Positions 46,281 to 57,622 of a DNA stretch of 57,622 bases are shown piece after piece. Within the stretch, counting starts at the first letter, position 1, and each line of letters opens with the position of its first letter. The notes beneath the pieces were generated by a model that saw only the letters and a program-made list of their open reading frames with translations, searched no databases and was not told the DNA's origin. Origin of the DNA: Lujinxingiaceae bacterium (GTDB lineage: Bacteria > Myxococcota_A > Bradymonadia > Bradymonadales > Bradymonadaceae); NCBI GenBank assembly GCA_013697635.1, contig JACCWM010000189.1, positions 1 to 57,622 of the forward strand. The letters run 5' to 3'. The translations under genes and the position numbers were made by a program.

Positions 46281-47672
46281 ATGCGCCGCCGATTTACCTA
46301 TTCTGACGCCAAGTCCAACAAGTTTTGGGAAGTGGAGCACGTCGAAGGTGAAGCCACTTTTGCGACCTACTGGGGTAGAATCGGCACCAACGGCCAGAGC
46401 AAGACCCAGACGGTGGCCTCAGCGGCGGCGGCCAAGGCCGACGTGGCCAAGCTGGTCATGAAGAAGGTGCGAAAGGATTATGTCGAGGACGCGAGCGCTG
46501 CCACGGCACCGGTTGCCGCACCCGTCGCTGCGCCCGTTGTCGTTGCGCCCGTTGTCGTTGCGCCCGTTGTCGTTGCACCCGTTGTCGTTGCACCCGTTGT
46601 CGTTGCACCGGCAGCCGTCAAGGTTGCGCCCGCTGCGCCCAAAGTCGTAGCCGTTGTGCCGCCCGCGGCGCCGGTCGCCGTCCAACAGCCCGAGCATGTT
46701 GGGCGTCGGCGCACGCTCACTCAGGATTGGTACGACTGGGAGAGGACCTCGCTCAAGCTCGAGTACGAGGTCTTCGAAGACGATCCGCGCACCAAGGACG
46801 GATCCTGGAAATCTTATCATCGCACGGGCCAGCTCAAGGGCGAGCGTTTGTACAGCGAGGGGCGGCTCATGGAGGTGTTGAGCTGCTTGGATGTCGATGG
46901 CAACCCCCTGGAGCGCGGAACGCTCGCTGGCGGCGAAGGCACGCTCAAGGGCTACCACGAAAACGGAGCCCTTCAGTTCGAGGGCCAATACCATCAGGGG
47001 CTGGCCACGGGTACCTGGACCTATTTCCATGACGACGGCTCGCTCAACGGTGGCGGGGAGTACCGCAGTGGCGAGCAGTTTGGAGAGTTTCAATGGTGGG
47101 GTAAGGAGGGCAACCTCTACCAGCGGGGCATCTATGCCGAGGACGGCGCTCAGCTCTTCCACTACAAGGCTGGCCGGCTGACCAGCGAGGGGCACGGGCT
47201 GATCCTTCAAGACAACTTCGTCAAGCATGGCGTGTGGAAGCACTACGGCGACGATGGCAGCCTCACCAAGCGCGTCGAATATGATCTCGGCGCCGAATTC
47301 GCGCTCGAGGCGCCCGATACCACGGCCTTGCTCAAGGCTTATCGAGGCAGCTCCGATCCGATCGCGCAGATGTGCGCGATGCTGGCGGCCAAGTACGCCG
47401 AGTATCGCGAGTACCACCACAATCCCAGAGAGCTGGTGGCCGCGCTCAAGCAAGCCGTCGCCGACGGGGACATGGTTTTGAATCCGGAGTTGGCCATCCG
47501 GTTGTATGTCAAGATGGCCGAGAATTACGTGCTGCAGATGCTTCCCGTGCTGGAGCTTATCGATGGCGAGCCGGCCGAGATCCGCGCAATTCTCGAGGCG
47601 CGCCTGGACGCCATTGCGAAGGGGAAGTCTCCCAATGGAAACCAGATCTCAGCGCTGGTGCTGGCCTTGTAG
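46281..47672 (+). CDS. WGR-domain protein with MORN/YwqK-like repeats
   Basis: 463 residues from the ATG at 46281. The N-terminus is a WGR domain (KFWEVEHVEGEATFATYWGRIGTNGQ broken up: NKFWEVEHV, then TYWGRIGTNGQ). A linker of five APVVV units follows, then MORN/YwqK-type repeats (GYHENGALQFEGQYHQG, YFHDDGSLNGGGEYRSG, HYGDDGSLTKRVEY) and a helical end. WGR domains occur in PARPs and in MolR/DUF4132 proteins. It ends at TAG (47670-47672), but the same frame continues open into the HEAT/DUF4132-like gene, so this may be the N-terminal half of one protein. Confidence 0.85.
   Translation: MRRRFTYSDAKSNKFWEVEHVEGEATFATYWGRIGTNGQSKTQTVASAAAAKADVAKLVMKKVRKDYVEDASAATAPVAAPVAAPVVVAPVVVAPVVVAPVVVAPVVVAPAAVKVAPAAPKVVAVVPPAAPVAVQQPEHVGRRRTLTQDWYDWERTSLKLEYEVFEDDPRTKDGSWKSYHRTGQLKGERLYSEGRLMEVLSCLDVDGNPLERGTLAGGEGTLKGYHENGALQFEGQYHQGLATGTWTYFHDDGSLNGGGEYRSGEQFGEFQWWGKEGNLYQRGIYAEDGAQLFHYKAGRLTSEGHGLILQDNFVKHGVWKHYGDDGSLTKRVEYDLGAEFALEAPDTTALLKAYRGSSDPIAQMCAMLAAKYAEYREYHHNPRELVAALKQAVADGDMVLNPELAIRLYVKMAENYVLQMLPVLELIDGEPAEIRAILEARLDAIAKGKSPNGNQISALVLAL
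46533..46607 (+). repeat. Five 15-base tandem units encoding APVVV linker
   Basis: CCCGTTGTCGTTGCG/A repeats exactly five times in phase in the WGR gene, between the WGR domain and the MORN-like repeats. Only the last base of the unit varies (G in copies 1-2, A in 3-5), so the array is recent or kept uniform. Confidence 0.9.
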
Positions 47673-47732
47673 CGTTTTCGCGGCGAAGCGCCACCCTTTG
47701 ATGCGCGCTTTGACGAGCTGCTCAACAACCGC

Positions 47733-50582
47733 GTGCTGACCTACATGGAGTCGGATGCCGTTCGCCCGGTTGCTCGCCGATTGTATCCGCTGTTGAAGAG
47801 TTTATCCGAGGAGCGCCGTGAGAAGCTCGTGCTCCACCATCGCACCTACAATGACACGCACACAGCGAACTGGCAGGTCGTGGGCGCGTGCCCGACGCCC
47901 AGGGTGATCGCGGTGTGCGTGGCCGAGGTGCTGGGCTGGGAGCGCTCCAAGTTCAGCTACTGCGAGTACCGGCGCACGAACACGAACGAGGCTTTTGCCG
48001 CCTTTGGAGAGGCCGCTGTACCGGCGATCCTGGAGGCGCTGGCGGCAGACGGCGCCAAGTGTGCCCTGCGCGAGATTTTAGTGCGTGCGTTGGCCGACGC
48101 CGCCAGCCCGGCGGTGGCGGCGGTGTTGCTCGAGTTTCTCAACGACAGCATCGAGGCGGTGCACATCGCGGCGGCCGAAGGGCTTCGCGCGCTGGGCCTG
48201 GCGGCCTTGCCGCATCTGGAAGAGGGGCTCAAGTCGCGCAAGAAGAACGTGCGTATTCGCTCGGCCGAGGTGCTGGCGGGCTTGCCGCTTGGGCCGGCGG
48301 TGCGTGCGCTGATCGAGCAAGGCCTGGCAAGCGTCAAGGACACCGAGGCCATCCAGGTACTGACGGCTGCGCTCGGGCCCAAAGAGGCGTTGCCCGACGG
48401 GCTCAAGGCCCTGCAAACGCTTCGCGCAGCCATAACCAGCGAGGATCGCGAGGCGCTGTTCGAGCGCATGACGCACGTCAACGATCACTTCACCTCGATC
48501 CCCAACCTCGTGCTGCTCGATCACCGGGTGATCGTCATTCTGGTCGATGAATTCTTGCAGTTTCAGCGCGGCGCGCGGTCGACGGAACCACCGTGTCGCG
48601 ATTTTTTCTGGTGGTGCATGCCACGGCTCAACAACCGCCCAGAGATGGTCTGGCTGGCGGCCGAGGAGCTCTTGAGCTACCCGAAGAGATCGAAGTACGA
48701 CATCACCAGGGGCTTGGAGAAAGGCCTCGAGGCCTTTGGTGCGCGGCTGGCCACACCGCTGGCCTATTATTTGAGTCGGTCCAGCTACGATACGCGCCAG
48801 CTCTTCATCGAATGGATCGCCGATCACGGTCCCGAGGCGGGGCGCGAGGCCTTGCTCGCGGCGCTCTCGGACAGCGCCAAGGGCGTGCGCGAGACGGCGA
48901 TGGCCGCGTTGACTGCGATGGGTGAGTCGGTCTTGCCGGCGCTGTGGCCGCTGCTCGAGGGCAGCGCGGATCAAATCACGTGCGTGGCGACGATTCTTCG
49001 CGACGTGCCCAGCGCCAAGTCGGTGCCCTATCTGGAGGCGGCGCTCGCGGGTGAGCGTCAGGCGGCGCGCCAGGAGCTTTTGCATGCGGCGATCAACGCC
49101 TGCAGGCTGGCCACGGCCGGCAGCGGCGACGAGGCTGGCGGCGACGAGGACTTTGCCGAGCTCGACCGGGGGTTGGCGGGGCGAAAGGCAGGCAAGGTGC
49201 CTGAGCTGGCGGCTGCCACGACGCTGCGCTGGCTCGACGCCTCGCCCGTCTCCGAGGCGGCCACGCGGTGGATCTTGGCCACGCTCGGGGCCGAGGGGCC
49301 CGAGAGCCAAAACGCCGAACTCGCCGCCGTGCGCAGCCGTCTGCAGGACGAAGGCTGCGAGGCGCTGGGCCGCACGTTGGTCGCCGAGCTGGGATGGAGC
49401 ACGCGCTGGGTGATGTATGCCGCCGGCGTTTTGGGCGGCGATCTGCTTATGAACGATCTGGGCGCCGCGTTGCAAAACCTCGTGCACGCGGTCAGCGCCC
49501 ACCACGCCGCCCACGGCGTCAACGCCCTGGTGCGAAATCCTGTGCCGGCTTCCGTGCGCTGGCTCGACCACTGGGCGCGCAAGGCCGAGACCGGCAAGCT
49601 CAAAAAAGACGCGCGCAAGGCCCTGGCCGATTTAAAGGAGCGTCTCGGGCTGAGCGGGGACGATCTCGTCGATCAGGTCACGCCGACCTTTAATTTTTCG
49701 TCCGCCGGCGATCTGGCCTTCGATTATGGCGGGCGCGCTTTGACCCTGGTGCTCGACGCCCAAAACAGCGTGATGGTGCGCGATGAAGCTGGCAACATCT
49801 CCAAGAGCTTGCCACGCGCGCTCAAGACCCAGGACGCTGCGGCCGTGGCCACCGCAGCGGAGCGCTTCAAGGCCCTGAAGAAGGCCGTCTCAGGCACGGC
49901 CAAAGACGTGTTGGTGCGCCTCGAGGACGCGATGATCGTCGACAGGCGCTGGCCGCTGCCGCGCTGGCAGGCGTTCTTCTTGCAAAATCCGGTGCTCTAC
50001 GCCCTGTCGCGCGGCCTGGTCTTTGCGATCCACGATGAGAAGGGGGCGATCGCGAGCCTGTTCTTCGTCAGCGAGGAGGGCGAGGCTACCGACGCCAATT
50101 TGGAGGCCGTGGTGTTCGACGCGCAGGCCGTGATCTCGATTCCCCATCCCGTGATCTTGAGCGACGAGCAACGCCAGAGCTGGTCGGCGCTGCTCGCTGA
50201 TGCCGAGATCGTGCAGCCCTTTGCCCAGCTCGAGCGTGGGTTCGTGCTCGGCGCCTCCAAGGCCTTAGAGCCGACAAAAGGAAAGACGGTGCCTATGTCG
50301 GTCCTTCCCCGAAGCCTGCGCCGGCTGGGCTACAAGGCCGGCCGGCCCCAAGATGGCGGCAATGTCTTTGATGCCAGCCGCCAGCTTGGCAGCCAGATCG
50401 AGCTCATGCTCTCGCACACCGGCTATCCCGTGCAGACCGGTTACATCTCGGCCAACGACACGCTCGAGTTCTACGGCATTTACCCGCAGTGGCTCGAGGG
50501 CGCCACGGCTGGGCCGATTGCCGAGAGCATCTACAGCGAGGCCGCCCTCGATTTGCAGGCATTCCTATCGCTCGATGCTTGA
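47733..50582 (+). CDS. HEAT-repeat protein with DUF4132/MolR-like C-terminus
   Basis: 949 residues from the GTG at 47733, but the frame is open without a break back to the TAG at 47670, and the 20 codons between read as natural protein (FRGEAPPFDARFDELLNNR). No ribosome site precedes the GTG or the ATG at 47745. Residues about 70-400 are HEAT-like helix pairs (GEAAVPAILEALAADG, LAALPHLEEGLKSRKKNV). The last 300 contain DUF4132-like sequence: LAFDYGGRALTLVLD, RFKALKKAVSGTAKDVLVRLEDAM, RRWPLPRWQAFFLQNPVLYALSRGL broken by spacing. Probably the second half of a WGR-DUF4132 protein. Confidence 0.75.
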   Translation: MLTYMESDAVRPVARRLYPLLKSLSEERREKLVLHHRTYNDTHTANWQVVGACPTPRVIAVCVAEVLGWERSKFSYCEYRRTNTNEAFAAFGEAAVPAILEALAADGAKCALREILVRALADAASPAVAAVLLEFLNDSIEAVHIAAAEGLRALGLAALPHLEEGLKSRKKNVRIRSAEVLAGLPLGPAVRALIEQGLASVKDTEAIQVLTAALGPKEALPDGLKALQTLRAAITSEDREALFERMTHVNDHFTSIPNLVLLDHRVIVILVDEFLQFQRGARSTEPPCRDFFWWCMPRLNNRPEMVWLAAEELLSYPKRSKYDITRGLEKGLEAFGARLATPLAYYLSRSSYDTRQLFIEWIADHGPEAGREALLAALSDSAKGVRETAMAALTAMGESVLPALWPLLEGSADQITCVATILRDVPSAKSVPYLEAALAGERQAARQELLHAAINACRLATAGSGDEAGGDEDFAELDRGLAGRKAGKVPELAAATTLRWLDASPVSEAATRWILATLGAEGPESQNAELAAVRSRLQDEGCEALGRTLVAELGWSTRWVMYAAGVLGGDLLMNDLGAALQNLVHAVSAHHAAHGVNALVRNPVPASVRWLDHWARKAETGKLKKDARKALADLKERLGLSGDDLVDQVTPTFNFSSAGDLAFDYGGRALTLVLDAQNSVMVRDEAGNISKSLPRALKTQDAAAVATAAERFKALKKAVSGTAKDVLVRLEDAMIVDRRWPLPRWQAFFLQNPVLYALSRGLVFAIHDEKGAIASLFFVSEEGEATDANLEAVVFDAQAVISIPHPVILSDEQRQSWSALLADAEIVQPFAQLERGFVLGASKALEPTKGKTVPMSVLPRSLRRLGYKAGRPQDGGNVFDASRQLGSQIELMLSHTGYPVQTGYISANDTLEFYGIYPQWLEGATAGPIAESIYSEAALDLQAFLSLDA

Positions 50583-50660: not shown

Positions 50661-52343
50661 ATGAAGCTATCGATCCCTTGTTTGACGTCGAATCCGGTCG
50701 TCGTGTTCGCCCTGGCAATCATGCTGCTGAGCCTTGGCTGTGGCCCCGACGAGCGCAGGGCGCGCTCCAAGCCCAAAGCTGACGTCGGGGTTGTTGACGC
50801 AGGCGACGACGCAGCCGACGCTGCAGGCGACGACGCCCCAGCGGTCGATAGCGGCGATGACGCTGCATGGACGGACGCTTGCATCGGTGAGAGCTGCGCT
50901 CAACCACGCTGCGACGATGGGGTCAAAAACGGCGACGAGACCGACATCGATTGCGGCGGAGTAGCTTGCGCGCCGTGCACTGTCGCCAGCTGCAGCGACA
51001 ACGTGCTCAATGGGTCCGAGAGCGATGTCGATTGTGGCGGTCCAGATTGCGCGGCCTGCCTGCCCGGGAGCCGTTGCGGCAGCGTCAATGACTGTACGAG
51101 CAAGCTGTGCATCAACAGCCTGTGTGCGCTGAGCCGGCTGGCGGTGACACTTGACGGCGCGGGCAGCGGCACCGTGACCTCCAGCCCGGCCGGTATCGAC
51201 TGCGGCGCGACATGCATCGGCGAATACGCCCACGCCACATCCGTCACGCTCACGGCCTCGCCAGCACCAGGCAGCCGCTTCACCGGCTGGTCCGGAGCGT
51301 GTACGGGCACGGCCGCTTGCACGGTGTCGATGAGCGAGGGGCGCTCGGTCGTGGCGAGCTTCTCGCTTGAGCGCACGCTGGACGTCAGCCAGGCGGGCAG
51401 TGGCCAGGGCACAGTCGCCTCGACGCCGGCCGGCATCGATTGTCCGACGAGCTGCAGCGCAGCGTTTGATCACGGCGCCCAGGTTGCGCTCAGCGCCTCG
51501 CCAGGTGCGACGAGCAATTTCACGGGTTGGTCGGGCGCCTGCATCGGTCTGGCCAACTGCGTCGTCTCCATGACCGAGGCGCGCACGCTGGTCGCAAATT
51601 TTGCGCTCAAATCCTACACCTTGTCGGTGAGCAAGGCCGGCAGCGGCATCGGCACGGTGACCTCGAGCCCATCGGGCATCAGTTGCGGCGCAACCTGCAG
51701 CCGCGACTACGCGCACGGCACCCAGGTGGTCTTGACGGCTGTGCCATCGGCGAACAGCAACTTCATAGGCTGGTCGGGCGCCGGATGCACGGGCGTCGGA
51801 ACCTGCAGCGTGACCATCACCCAGGCCGAGTCGGTCACCGCGCTCTTTTATGCCCCATTCTTACCCACGGATTTCGAGTCGGAGAGCTTTGATAATCTCA
51901 GCATCTCGGCGGCCTCCTACACCGCCGGCAGCTTCGTCGGCGACGCCAACCGCACCTGGCATTTTGAGGACGTCCGCCGAACCGGCGCCACCTCCGGGAG
52001 CATCGACGGCAACGGCATGGTCTTTCGAGGCAACAGCACCAGCGGCGGCGTACCCTATCTGTCGCGCCTTTATTCGCCACCGATGAGCGGCGGCATCGGT
52101 GGCTTCTCGGTCGAGATGCGCAAGGCGTTCGAGGGCAGCGGCGTGCGCCAGATCGAGCTCGTGATCAACGGAACCTCCGTGGCCACCTCCGTGGCCTTTG
52201 GCGATTTCTCCGGCGAGGAGACGATCGTGCGAAAGTTCGAGGTGCCCAACGTCAACATCGCCGGCAACGTCGTGATTGAGCTGCGCGCCGTCGGCGTCGG
52301 CCAGCTCGTGCTCGACAATCTGGTGTGGACCCAGAGCCCGTAG
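50661..52343 (+). CDS. Lipoprotein with DCGG modules and InlB-type B-repeats
   Basis: 560 residues. Lipobox LSLGC, then an Asp/Ala-rich linker (VVDAGDDAADAAGDD). Two Cys-rich modules follow (NGDETDIDCGG, NGSESDVDCGG), a myxobacterial surface style. Three divergent InlB B-repeat-like units span about 155-400, each with GSGTVTSSPAGIDCG-like, ATSVTLTASPAPGSRFTGWSG-like and VVASF-like segments. The C-terminal 160 residues form a strand-rich domain (FDNLSISAASY...VEMRKAFEGSG) ending LDNLVWTQSP, probably sugar- or ligand-binding. Cell-surface adhesin or binding protein is the likely role. Ribosome site weak. Confidence 0.8.
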   Translation: MKLSIPCLTSNPVVVFALAIMLLSLGCGPDERRARSKPKADVGVVDAGDDAADAAGDDAPAVDSGDDAAWTDACIGESCAQPRCDDGVKNGDETDIDCGGVACAPCTVASCSDNVLNGSESDVDCGGPDCAACLPGSRCGSVNDCTSKLCINSLCALSRLAVTLDGAGSGTVTSSPAGIDCGATCIGEYAHATSVTLTASPAPGSRFTGWSGACTGTAACTVSMSEGRSVVASFSLERTLDVSQAGSGQGTVASTPAGIDCPTSCSAAFDHGAQVALSASPGATSNFTGWSGACIGLANCVVSMTEARTLVANFALKSYTLSVSKAGSGIGTVTSSPSGISCGATCSRDYAHGTQVVLTAVPSANSNFIGWSGAGCTGVGTCSVTITQAESVTALFYAPFLPTDFESESFDNLSISAASYTAGSFVGDANRTWHFEDVRRTGATSGSIDGNGMVFRGNSTSGGVPYLSRLYSPPMSGGIGGFSVEMRKAFEGSGVRQIELVINGTSVATSVAFGDFSGEETIVRKFEVPNVNIAGNVVIELRAVGVGQLVLDNLVWTQSP

Positions 52344-54161: not shown

Positions 54162-55268
54162 ATGGAAATTCAACGCGCGCTTGCCGAAGAGCGCCACGCA
54201 CGCGAGCTTGCGGCGCTGGTCGCGGCCGATACGGGCTCGAGGCCGCCGGGTTGGCGGCTTTCGCCGCGGGCGGTGGTCGATTTCATCGTCGGGCTCGCCA
54301 GGCCGATCGCGCATCCCGATGGGGAGCTGGTGCAGGTCGAGCGCAAGTTCTATGGGGACGATGCGCTCGTCGAGCGGGCGGTGATTACGCTGACGACCAG
54401 CCGTGGGCTGATGTTGGTGGGTGAGCCGGGTACGGCCAAGACGATGTTGTCGGAGTTGCTGGCGGCAGCGATCAGCGCGGACAGCACGCTGGCTATTCAG
54501 GGTTCGGCGGGTACGACCGAGGATCAGGTGCGCTACGGGTGGAACTACGCGGCGCTTTTGGCCTCGGGGCCTTCGATGAGCGCGCTGGTGCCGGCGCCGC
54601 TTTATCTGGCCATGGAGCAGGGCTTGCTGGTGCGTTTTGAAGAGATTACGCGCTGCGCGCCGGAGGTCCAAGACGTGCTGCTGTCGCCGTTATCCGACCG
54701 GCTGCTGCTGATTCCTGAGCTTGCGGGGGCCGAGCGTATTGTGCAGGCCAGGGTGGGCTTCAATGTGATTGGGACGGCCAATACGCGGGATAGGGGCGTG
54801 AGCGACATGAGCGCGGCGCTCAAGCGGCGCTTCAACTTCGAGACGGTGCGCCCGATTCGGGATCTGAAGCTCGAGGTCGAGCTCGTGTTGCAAAACACCA
54901 ACCGGGCGCTGGCCGAGATCGCGGTGCCGGTACGCCTGGAGGAAGACGTGGCGCGCCTTTTGGTTACGACCTTTCAGGAGCTGCGCGAGGGAATCACGCG
55001 AGAGGGCGACCGGGTCGACTGTCCGACCACTCCTATGTCGACGGCTGAGGCCGTGGCCGTGGCGACGAGCTCGGGCTGTCATGCGCACTTTTTGGGCAGC
55101 GGTCAAATTCGGCCAGACGATCTGGTGCGCTATTTGATGGGCACGGTGCTCAAGGACGACCCGGAGGATCGCGAGCGGCTGGTCAACTACTTCGAGCGCA
55201 TCGCCAAGCGTCGGGCCAAGGACAACCCGCTGTGGAAGGAGTGGAGCGACGCGAAGAAGTGGCTGTAA
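54162..55268 (+). CDS. MoxR-type AAA ATPase
   Basis: 368 residues. Walker A GEPGTAKT (87-94) is exact. The Walker B region reads LLVRFEEITRCAPEVQDVLLSPLSD, here FEE in place of the usual DE, a form I associate with a MoxR subgroup. Sensor 1 is FNVIGTANTRDRG and the arginine region ALKRRFNFETV. MoxR ATPases act as chaperones that work with von Willebrand A-domain partners. The stop shares one base with the next start (TAATG), so the downstream DUF5682-like gene is translationally coupled. Start at the ATG 54162; weak ribosome site. Confidence 0.9.
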   Translation: MEIQRALAEERHARELAALVAADTGSRPPGWRLSPRAVVDFIVGLARPIAHPDGELVQVERKFYGDDALVERAVITLTTSRGLMLVGEPGTAKTMLSELLAAAISADSTLAIQGSAGTTEDQVRYGWNYAALLASGPSMSALVPAPLYLAMEQGLLVRFEEITRCAPEVQDVLLSPLSDRLLLIPELAGAERIVQARVGFNVIGTANTRDRGVSDMSAALKRRFNFETVRPIRDLKLEVELVLQNTNRALAEIAVPVRLEEDVARLLVTTFQELREGITREGDRVDCPTTPMSTAEAVAVATSSGCHAHFLGSGQIRPDDLVRYLMGTVLKDDPEDRERLVNYFERIAKRRAKDNPLWKEWSDAKKWL

Positions 55269-57622
55269 TGAACGTCGTTTTTCTGCCCGTGCGCCACCAC
55301 TCACCGGCCTGCGCGGTGCAGGTGCGCCGGCTCTTGGAGCAGGTGCGCCCGGCCGAGGTGCTCATTGAGGGTCCGGCTGATTTCAACGCGCACTTTGGCC
55401 GCCTGCAAGAGCGCGACGTCGTGCCGCCGGTCGCGCTTTTTACCTACGTGGCGCGGCCAAGCGTCGACGATCCCGGCCAGACCGAGCGTTTTCAGGGCTG
55501 GTACCCATTTTGTGACTACACGCCGGAGTGGGTGGCGCTCAAGACGGCCGCGCGGCTGGGCATCCTGGCGAGTTTTATCGATCTGCCGCTCGCTGAGCGG
55601 GTCGCGCTCGAGCTCGATCCCGAGACGCGCGAGCTGCTCAAAGACGGGGGCATCGATCTGTTCGCGCGCAGTGACGAGGCCGTCGAGCGCTATATCGCGC
55701 ACCTTGGCGCCAAGATTCGCTCGCGCGACAGCGACGACACCTGGGATCGTCTGTTCGAGATCGGAGCGAACATGGCGCCTGTGGCCTTTTTTGAGAACCT
55801 GCGCGCTTTTGGTGGGGCGCTTCGAGCGATGACTGGCGAGCAGGTGGCTGCGGCGCGCGGCGACGTGTGGCGAGAGCGCTTCATGGCGGCGCGCATTCTC
55901 GAGGCCGTCGAGCGAAACGAGGCGGGTGCAACGATCGCCGTGGTGTGCGGGGCCTTTCATGTCGAGGGGCTCGAGCGCCTGCTTGCCGGCGCCCCGATCG
56001 CTGTCTCGCCAGGCGCTTGCCCTGTGGCCGAGGAGCGCGGCATCTATCTGGTGCCCTATGATTTCAAGCGCATGTCCAGCCTGCACTATGCGGCAGGGGT
56101 GGCGGCGCCGGCCTGGTATCAGGGGCTGTGGGAGGACCTCAATACGCCGGCTCAGGCTGGCCCGTTTTGGATGCGCATGCTGGCCGAGGCGATGCGGGCT
56201 GCGCGCGAGGCGGACATCGCGTTGAGCACGGCGGAGCTTGAGGCGGCAAGCGAGATGGCCCTTCGGCTGGCCACGTTTCGCAACCAGGCCGAGCCCTCAC
56301 GCGTCGACGTGCTCGACGCCGTGCGCACCTGCTGGGTCAAGGGGCCCGTCGACCAGGCCCATGCCCGGGTGCTCGGGGTGGTCGACGCCGTCTTTCGTGG
56401 CGATCGCGCCGGCCAGGCCGGCAGCTCGGCCAGCGATCCGCCGCTGGTGCAAGACGTCGACCGGCTGCTCTTGGCCGCCTCGCTCGATTGCGCCAAGGGC
56501 AAACGCGAGCTGCGCCTTCGACCGGCGCGCGCTGAGCGTGACCGCGATCGCATGCGCCTGCTGTTGCGCCTGCAATACCTGGGCGTCGCCTACGCCACGC
56601 AGCTCCGTGGGCAGCACTCGAAGAGGCGCGAGCGCGAAGCCGTCGACCAACCCACGCTCCACAACTGCTCGATGCGGTCGAGATCCCTGCCCTCCAAAAA
56701 GCGCGGCCCGTACGGCGCCACCCTGGAGGACGCCGTCGCCGAGCGCTTGCGTGAGCTCGCCGGGCGCGCCGAGGGCGGGGCAGCGAGCGCGGTCGGCCAC
56801 CTCTTCGACGCCTGCGCGCTGGGGCTGCACCGGCTGGCCGACATCCTGCTCGAAAAGCTCGCGCCGGCGATCGCTGGCGAGGGTCGGCTGCTCTCGGTGC
56901 TCAAGGCCGTGCAGGGGTTGGTCACGCTGTACCGCTACCGCGACGTGCTCGAAGGCGTCGGCCTGCCGGCTCTGGCCGAGGCGATCGGGCGCTGCTGGCA
57001 GCGCGCGCTATGGTTGATCGATACGCTCGCGAGTGTGAGCGAGGAAGAAGAAGACGAGGCGCTGCAAGGCTTGAGAGCCCTGGAACACGTTGCGCTCACC
57101 CTTGGCGAGGAGCGAGACGACAGCCGTTTCGGCGTGGAGGCCGATGCTTATTTTGACGCCTTGAGCCGCGTTCGGCCGGCGCTTCGCCACTTGCCGGGCC
57201 TTCACGGCGGCGCAGGGGGGCTGCTGTGGCGCGCGGGTCAATGCGATGCCGACGAGCTCTCCGAGCACGCCACGGCGCACTTTCGTGAGGTCGGGCTCTT
57301 TGCCGAGGCTCCCGGGCGCTTTGTTGGCGGGCTGTTGACCGTTGCCAGGCGCGCGGTGCTCGACGAGCCGCTGATCATCTTGGGGCTGGGAGAGGCGTTG
57401 GGTGAGCTCGATGAGCAGGACTTTCGTCGCAGCCTGCCGCGACTGCGACGGGCGATGGCCGCGCTGACGCCTTCCGAGACCGGGCAGTTGGCGCGCCAGG
57501 TGGTGGCGCTCTGGGGTGGGGATGCGTTGGAGCTGGTGGGGCGTTTGGATTTGCCGGTCGAGGAGCTGGTCGCGCTTCGGGTTTTGGAGGCCGAGGTGAG
57601 GCAAGACTTGGGAGAGTGGGGG
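55268..57622 (+). CDS. DUF5682-like protein (3' end outside window)
   Basis: 785 codons, open to the last base. The start ATG overlaps the MoxR stop by one base. The N-terminus LPVRHHSPACA (7-17) followed by VLIEGPADF and, near 228-231, GAFH in VVCGAFHVEGLERLL fit the DUF5682 pattern and its likely relation to ChaN/TIKI-type hydrolase folds. The second half is a long helical region. Residues about 466-482 look scrambled: another frame gives a more natural helix there, suggesting two compensating frameshifts. MoxR-DUF5682 pairs usually continue with a VWA protein, which would lie past the window. Confidence 0.75.
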   Translation, partial: MNVVFLPVRHHSPACAVQVRRLLEQVRPAEVLIEGPADFNAHFGRLQERDVVPPVALFTYVARPSVDDPGQTERFQGWYPFCDYTPEWVALKTAARLGILASFIDLPLAERVALELDPETRELLKDGGIDLFARSDEAVERYIAHLGAKIRSRDSDDTWDRLFEIGANMAPVAFFENLRAFGGALRAMTGEQVAAARGDVWRERFMAARILEAVERNEAGATIAVVCGAFHVEGLERLLAGAPIAVSPGACPVAEERGIYLVPYDFKRMSSLHYAAGVAAPAWYQGLWEDLNTPAQAGPFWMRMLAEAMRAAREADIALSTAELEAASEMALRLATFRNQAEPSRVDVLDAVRTCWVKGPVDQAHARVLGVVDAVFRGDRAGQAGSSASDPPLVQDVDRLLLAASLDCAKGKRELRLRPARAERDRDRMRLLLRLQYLGVAYATQLRGQHSKRREREAVDQPTLHNCSMRSRSLPSKKRGPYGATLEDAVAERLRELAGRAEGGAASAVGHLFDACALGLHRLADILLEKLAPAIAGEGRLLSVLKAVQGLVTLYRYRDVLEGVGLPALAEAIGRCWQRALWLIDTLASVSEEEEDEALQGLRALEHVALTLGEERDDSRFGVEADAYFDALSRVRPALRHLPGLHGGAGGLLWRAGQCDADELSEHATAHFREVGLFAEAPGRFVGGLLTVARRAVLDEPLIILGLGEALGELDEQDFRRSLPRLRRAMAALTPSETGQLARQVVALWGGDALELVGRLDLPVEELVALRVLEAEVRQDLGEWG

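Follow-up and report, generated by a model that had tools for sequence, protein, structure and literature searches.

The window analysed here, a stretch of 57,622 nt, is contig C11 of a draft-like 6.21-Mb genome (G000) in 213 contigs. On its forward strand, the frame from 46281 to 50582 holds a single internal stop, TAG 47670-47672, which in translation is codon 464 of 1,434. The N-terminal open part (46281-47672, 463 codons plus the TAG) encodes a WGR domain (PF05406, E 1.2e-15), a repetitive Ala/Pro/Val linker, MORN_2 repeats (2e-7) and the start of a helical region. Its start at 46281 agrees with homologues and has a usable Shine-Dalgarno (SD) sequence, GAGGG (-6.1 kcal/mol). The C-terminal open part (47673-50582), which is homologous to a paralogue and relatives, continues in the same frame as WGR for 969 codons without a further stop and ends in TGA; it encodes the rest of the HEAT-like solenoid (HEAT_2, 2e-12) and DUF4132 (PF13569, E 2.8e-33), with a GC3 of 0.83. 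These results bear out the preliminary description, in which one TAG divided an otherwise open WGR/MORN/HEAT/DUF4132 frame. The linker contains an in-frame 15-bp tandem repeat at 46524-46606 (5.5 copies, 97% matches), which encodes Val/Ala/Pro-rich sequence and may vary in copy number from strain to strain.

Two downstream genes on the same strand resemble neighbors of molR in Escherichia coli. A MoxR AAA+ ATPase (54162-55268, AAA_5) is a YehL homologue with 50.5% identity to YehL residues 7-361, and a YehM homologue (55289-57622; tblastn residues 9-755, E 3e-51) reaches the contig end. Although two unrelated genes lie between them and the interrupted gene, their presence identifies a molR–yehLM-like locus. 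Since the YehM homologue runs off the contig, the rest of the cluster may be on another contig. DUF4132, yehL and yehM homologues are also close neighbors in two other genomes (G011 and G038). The genome of the window contains a second yehL-yehM-yehP cluster (L184, contig C41, 1141-5920), with a separate 302-aa DUF4132 frame near it (C41:14716-15621, minus strand). Two candidate affiliations of the locus were rejected. Membership in a defence system was dropped because PADLOC returned a weak HEAT hit only, and membership in the ternary MoxR–vWA conflict systems because the key paper on these systems mentions neither MolR, WGR nor YehL.

The continuity of the frame was examined by alignment of the joined translation with homologues. 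Closest to the window gene is a second copy in its own genome, the paralogue C62:1425-4136 (minus strand), whose alignment is unbroken over the stop with about 49% identity before it and about 50% after. Across the junction the window reads LAL*RFRGEAPPFDARFDELLNNRVL and the paralogue LALGRFQSEQSVLDLRFDELFNGLVL. The 20 codons at 47673-47732, which lead from the TAG to GTG 47733 and were described earlier as protein-like, are indeed homologous to coding sequence of the paralogue, so the continuity of the frame is not due to chance. A protein from the same order (G023:C316) is one chain of 1,417 aa aligned over residues 100-1429, and a 1,271-aa chain in G193 aligns over residues 123-1421. At least ten further DUF4132-family proteins have a single open frame that begins ahead of the stop position. 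Some distant chains of the family, such as L046 and L156, give local alignments on either side of the stop column, and in other distant members the open frame starts far ahead of the point where their alignment begins. These single chains contradict the possibility that homologues are always two genes. In the multiple alignment, which is loose for the distant DUF4132-family proteins, homologues never show a stop at this column, and no relative encoded as two genes split at this place was found among the DUF4132-family relatives examined. Comparison of the sequences thus shows that the interrupted frame was ancestrally one gene with a single reading frame.

Several apparent exceptions were rejected. 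Chains in G111 and G186 considered as split homologues stop before DUF4132 and no split partner was found for them, and a TGA in G023:C614 considered as an internal stop is a terminal stop. A scan of genome contigs yielded three loci only, of which one is the G023:C316 protein again. The named assemblies with relatives are uncultured proteobacterial and Myxococcales/Polyangiaceae, so that the window is presumably of myxobacterial origin.

The position of the stop within the protein was examined with an AlphaFold2 model of residues 328-856. The stop falls at segment residue 137, within a predicted helix (126-139), in a model built from a two-sequence alignment with mean pLDDT 71 and values of about 70 or lower around the stop. 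The TAG is therefore predicted to lie inside a conserved helical region and not at a domain seam. The start of the C62 paralogue lies close to where the MORN repeats finish, some 125 residues ahead of the stop; by alignment this is a more natural boundary than the stop itself.

Restart of translation after the TAG was considered at the GTG at 47733 and the ATG at 47745, neither of which had been credited with a ribosome site. Their SD pairing is weak (-2.8 and -1.7 kcal/mol, respectively), below the mean of -3.7 for in-frame internal ATG, GTG and TTG codons. However, several accepted genes of the window, such as those at 50661 (-2.8) and 54162 (-2.5), are equally weak. The lack of a ribosome site is therefore weak evidence by itself.

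Use of TAG in the genome was examined to learn whether it is read as a sense codon. TAG ends about 29% of the ORFs in a 444-kb sample, compared with 20% for TAA and 51% for TGA. All tRNAs detected in the genome, 45 in number, were read, and none has a CUA anticodon or otherwise reads UAG; RF1 is detected with a score that clearly exceeds its cut-off. In regions L078-L097 and the window, 9/79 TAG-ended ORFs have in-frame extensions of at least 300 codons, compared with 8/206 TGA/TAA-ended ORFs. Despite this mild excess, genome-wide recoding of TAG was rejected, since in every case that Pfam could judge it pointed to separate genes, for example a penicillin-binding protein after a short upstream ORF and a GDC-P protein that finishes at its stop. 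When 23 other pairs of ORFs abutting in frame at a stop (13 TAG, 10 TGA/TAA; about 0.5 Mb) were scanned as joined translations, the stop interrupted no domain in any pair with a Pfam match; several pairs had none and are uninformative. Because TAG is normally used, RF1 is present and 0/45 tRNAs read UAG, genome-wide recoding is excluded. The two hallmarks of recoding or readthrough, a decoding tRNA or reassigned stop and an in-frame stop conserved in homologues, are both absent here.

Other members of the subfamily in the same genome are also damaged. The paralogue on C62, about 50% identical to the window protein and continuous with it at the stop column, is truncated and has an internal deletion: WGR and MORN are missing, as are about 195 residues of its HEAT region, and a long open frame is kept. 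A remnant on C114 (L039, 1683-2888) joins the beginning of the helical region directly to the final ~141 residues, over which it is 87% identical to C62; nearly all of residues ~368 to ~1290 is missing. A more distant DUF4132 gene on C110 (L038, 3880-7715) has a frameshift at L038:6493-6528. Since base-call errors cannot make large deletions, these copies look as if the subfamily is decaying in its own genome.

The interrupted gene has the architecture of E. coli MolR, in which an N-terminal WGR and a C-terminal DUF4132 domain occur in one chain, as the preliminary description had stated. E. coli strains SM107 and GTEN_97 each carry a single 1,264-aa 'WGR and DUF4132 domain-containing protein'; in the window gene the same two domains are separated by the TAG, and in its homologues they share one chain. 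The two proteins differ in the MORN repeats and the long, repetitive linker of the window protein, and similarity is detectable only in WGR (45%, YehF/MolR) and the DUF4132 end (28%). YehI of E. coli (1,210 aa) likewise has a C-terminal DUF4132 and lies upstream of yehL, but it gives no WGR or MORN hit and shows 28.5% identity over about 310 residues. For molR of E. coli a link to molybdate has been put forward; PMC8533742 restates it but finds the molybdate genes unchanged.

The E. coli gene also carries a natural in-frame stop after its WGR part in some strains and is intact in others. The MG1655 annotation shows yehF (WGR) and the pseudogene yehH in the molR region, followed by yehI, yehK, yehL, yehM, yehP and yehQ, and molR of strain 26561 is annotated 'internal stop'. 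Codon 275 of 1,264 is TGA in K-12 MG1655 and 26561, and sense in six other strains that were read; the stop in the window gene is TAG. A search of 5,426 E. coli genomes found 708 that match the K-12 stop context and 3,218 that match the sense context, these being counts of a matching short context and not full genotypes.

Four explanations of the TAG had been put forward, and the weight given here to each is a judgement. The comparative and genome-context data favor a recently acquired nonsense mutation in a MolR-like WGR-MORN-HEAT-DUF4132 gene, which we consider likely. The damaged sister copies speak for it as well, and the stop in E. coli molR is a close parallel. The frame carries a disabling change relative to intact homologues, as a pseudogene does, and the gene is probably a young pseudogene. 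In this frame about 3% of random substitutions would create a stop, and a single disabling change is what would be expected of a young event. From the absence of a second one, divergence since the mutation is bounded at about 0.7-1.1% (95%), assuming no selection and 5-10 indels per 100 substitutions. Compared with C62, dN and dS are 0.44 and 0.99 before the stop and 0.39-0.44 and 0.79-0.83 after it; these similar values reflect the long shared past of the two copies and not the time since the stop arose. Two observations count against a recent nonsense mutation. The strong coding character downstream of the TAG also fits a gene that is still translated, and the two closest homologues have Gly (C62) and Ala at the stop column, with codons more than one step from TAG.

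The main rival, though an unlikely one, is a base-call or consensus error in a gene that is truly an intact single frame. The draft-like state of the genome and the integrity of all but one codon are consistent with it, and the frameshift on C110 could be another such error. On the other hand, none of the 23 other in-frame pairs has a Pfam domain cut by its stop, the deletions in the sister copies are beyond what base-calling can produce, and genuine alleles of a MolR gene that carry a stop occur commonly in E. coli. An early gene fission, with a WGR/MORN protein and a separate HEAT/DUF4132 piece made by restart at 47733 or 47745, would explain why both parts keep open frames. WGR-only frames such as E. 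coli YehF are annotated as genes, and C62 retains a long frame without WGR/MORN. However, the very weak restart sites, the location of the stop inside a predicted helix and some 125 residues beyond the C62 start, and the failure to find a relative divided there make a functional split rather improbable. Programmed or leaky readthrough, which would yield short and full-length proteins, draws on the frame going on exactly after the TAG and on the C that follows UAG, a non-optimal context for termination. With no UAG-reading tRNA, RF1 present, families that finish at TAG where Pfam could judge, and no homologue with a stop at this column, it is very improbable.

If a recent nonsense mutation is the correct explanation, a point mutation would have placed a premature TAG at codon 464 of the ancestrally single frame. 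Translation would now stop after WGR, MORN and part of the helical region. Of the HEAT/DUF4132 part little would be made at best, through chance restart or background misreading, and the full-length protein would thus be effectively lost. The annotation of the locus should be corrected, the two ORFs being one interrupted MolR-like gene. With the window, WGR–DUF4132 genes broken by an in-frame stop are now seen in two lineages that are distant from each other, and this suggests that proteins of this large kind can be dispensed with or experience fluctuating selection. It is conceivable, and we think very doubtful, that WGR-DUF4132 genes repeatedly gain stops just past WGR and the linker (codon 275 in E. 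coli molR, codon 464 here) because the truncated WGR fragment retains or acquires a regulatory role, in which case the stop would be an on/off allele and not decay. In a loose and weak alignment, the stop of E. coli molR (L171, L175, L176) falls about 10 residues from the window stop. This near-match may be either coincidence or a tolerated truncation point.
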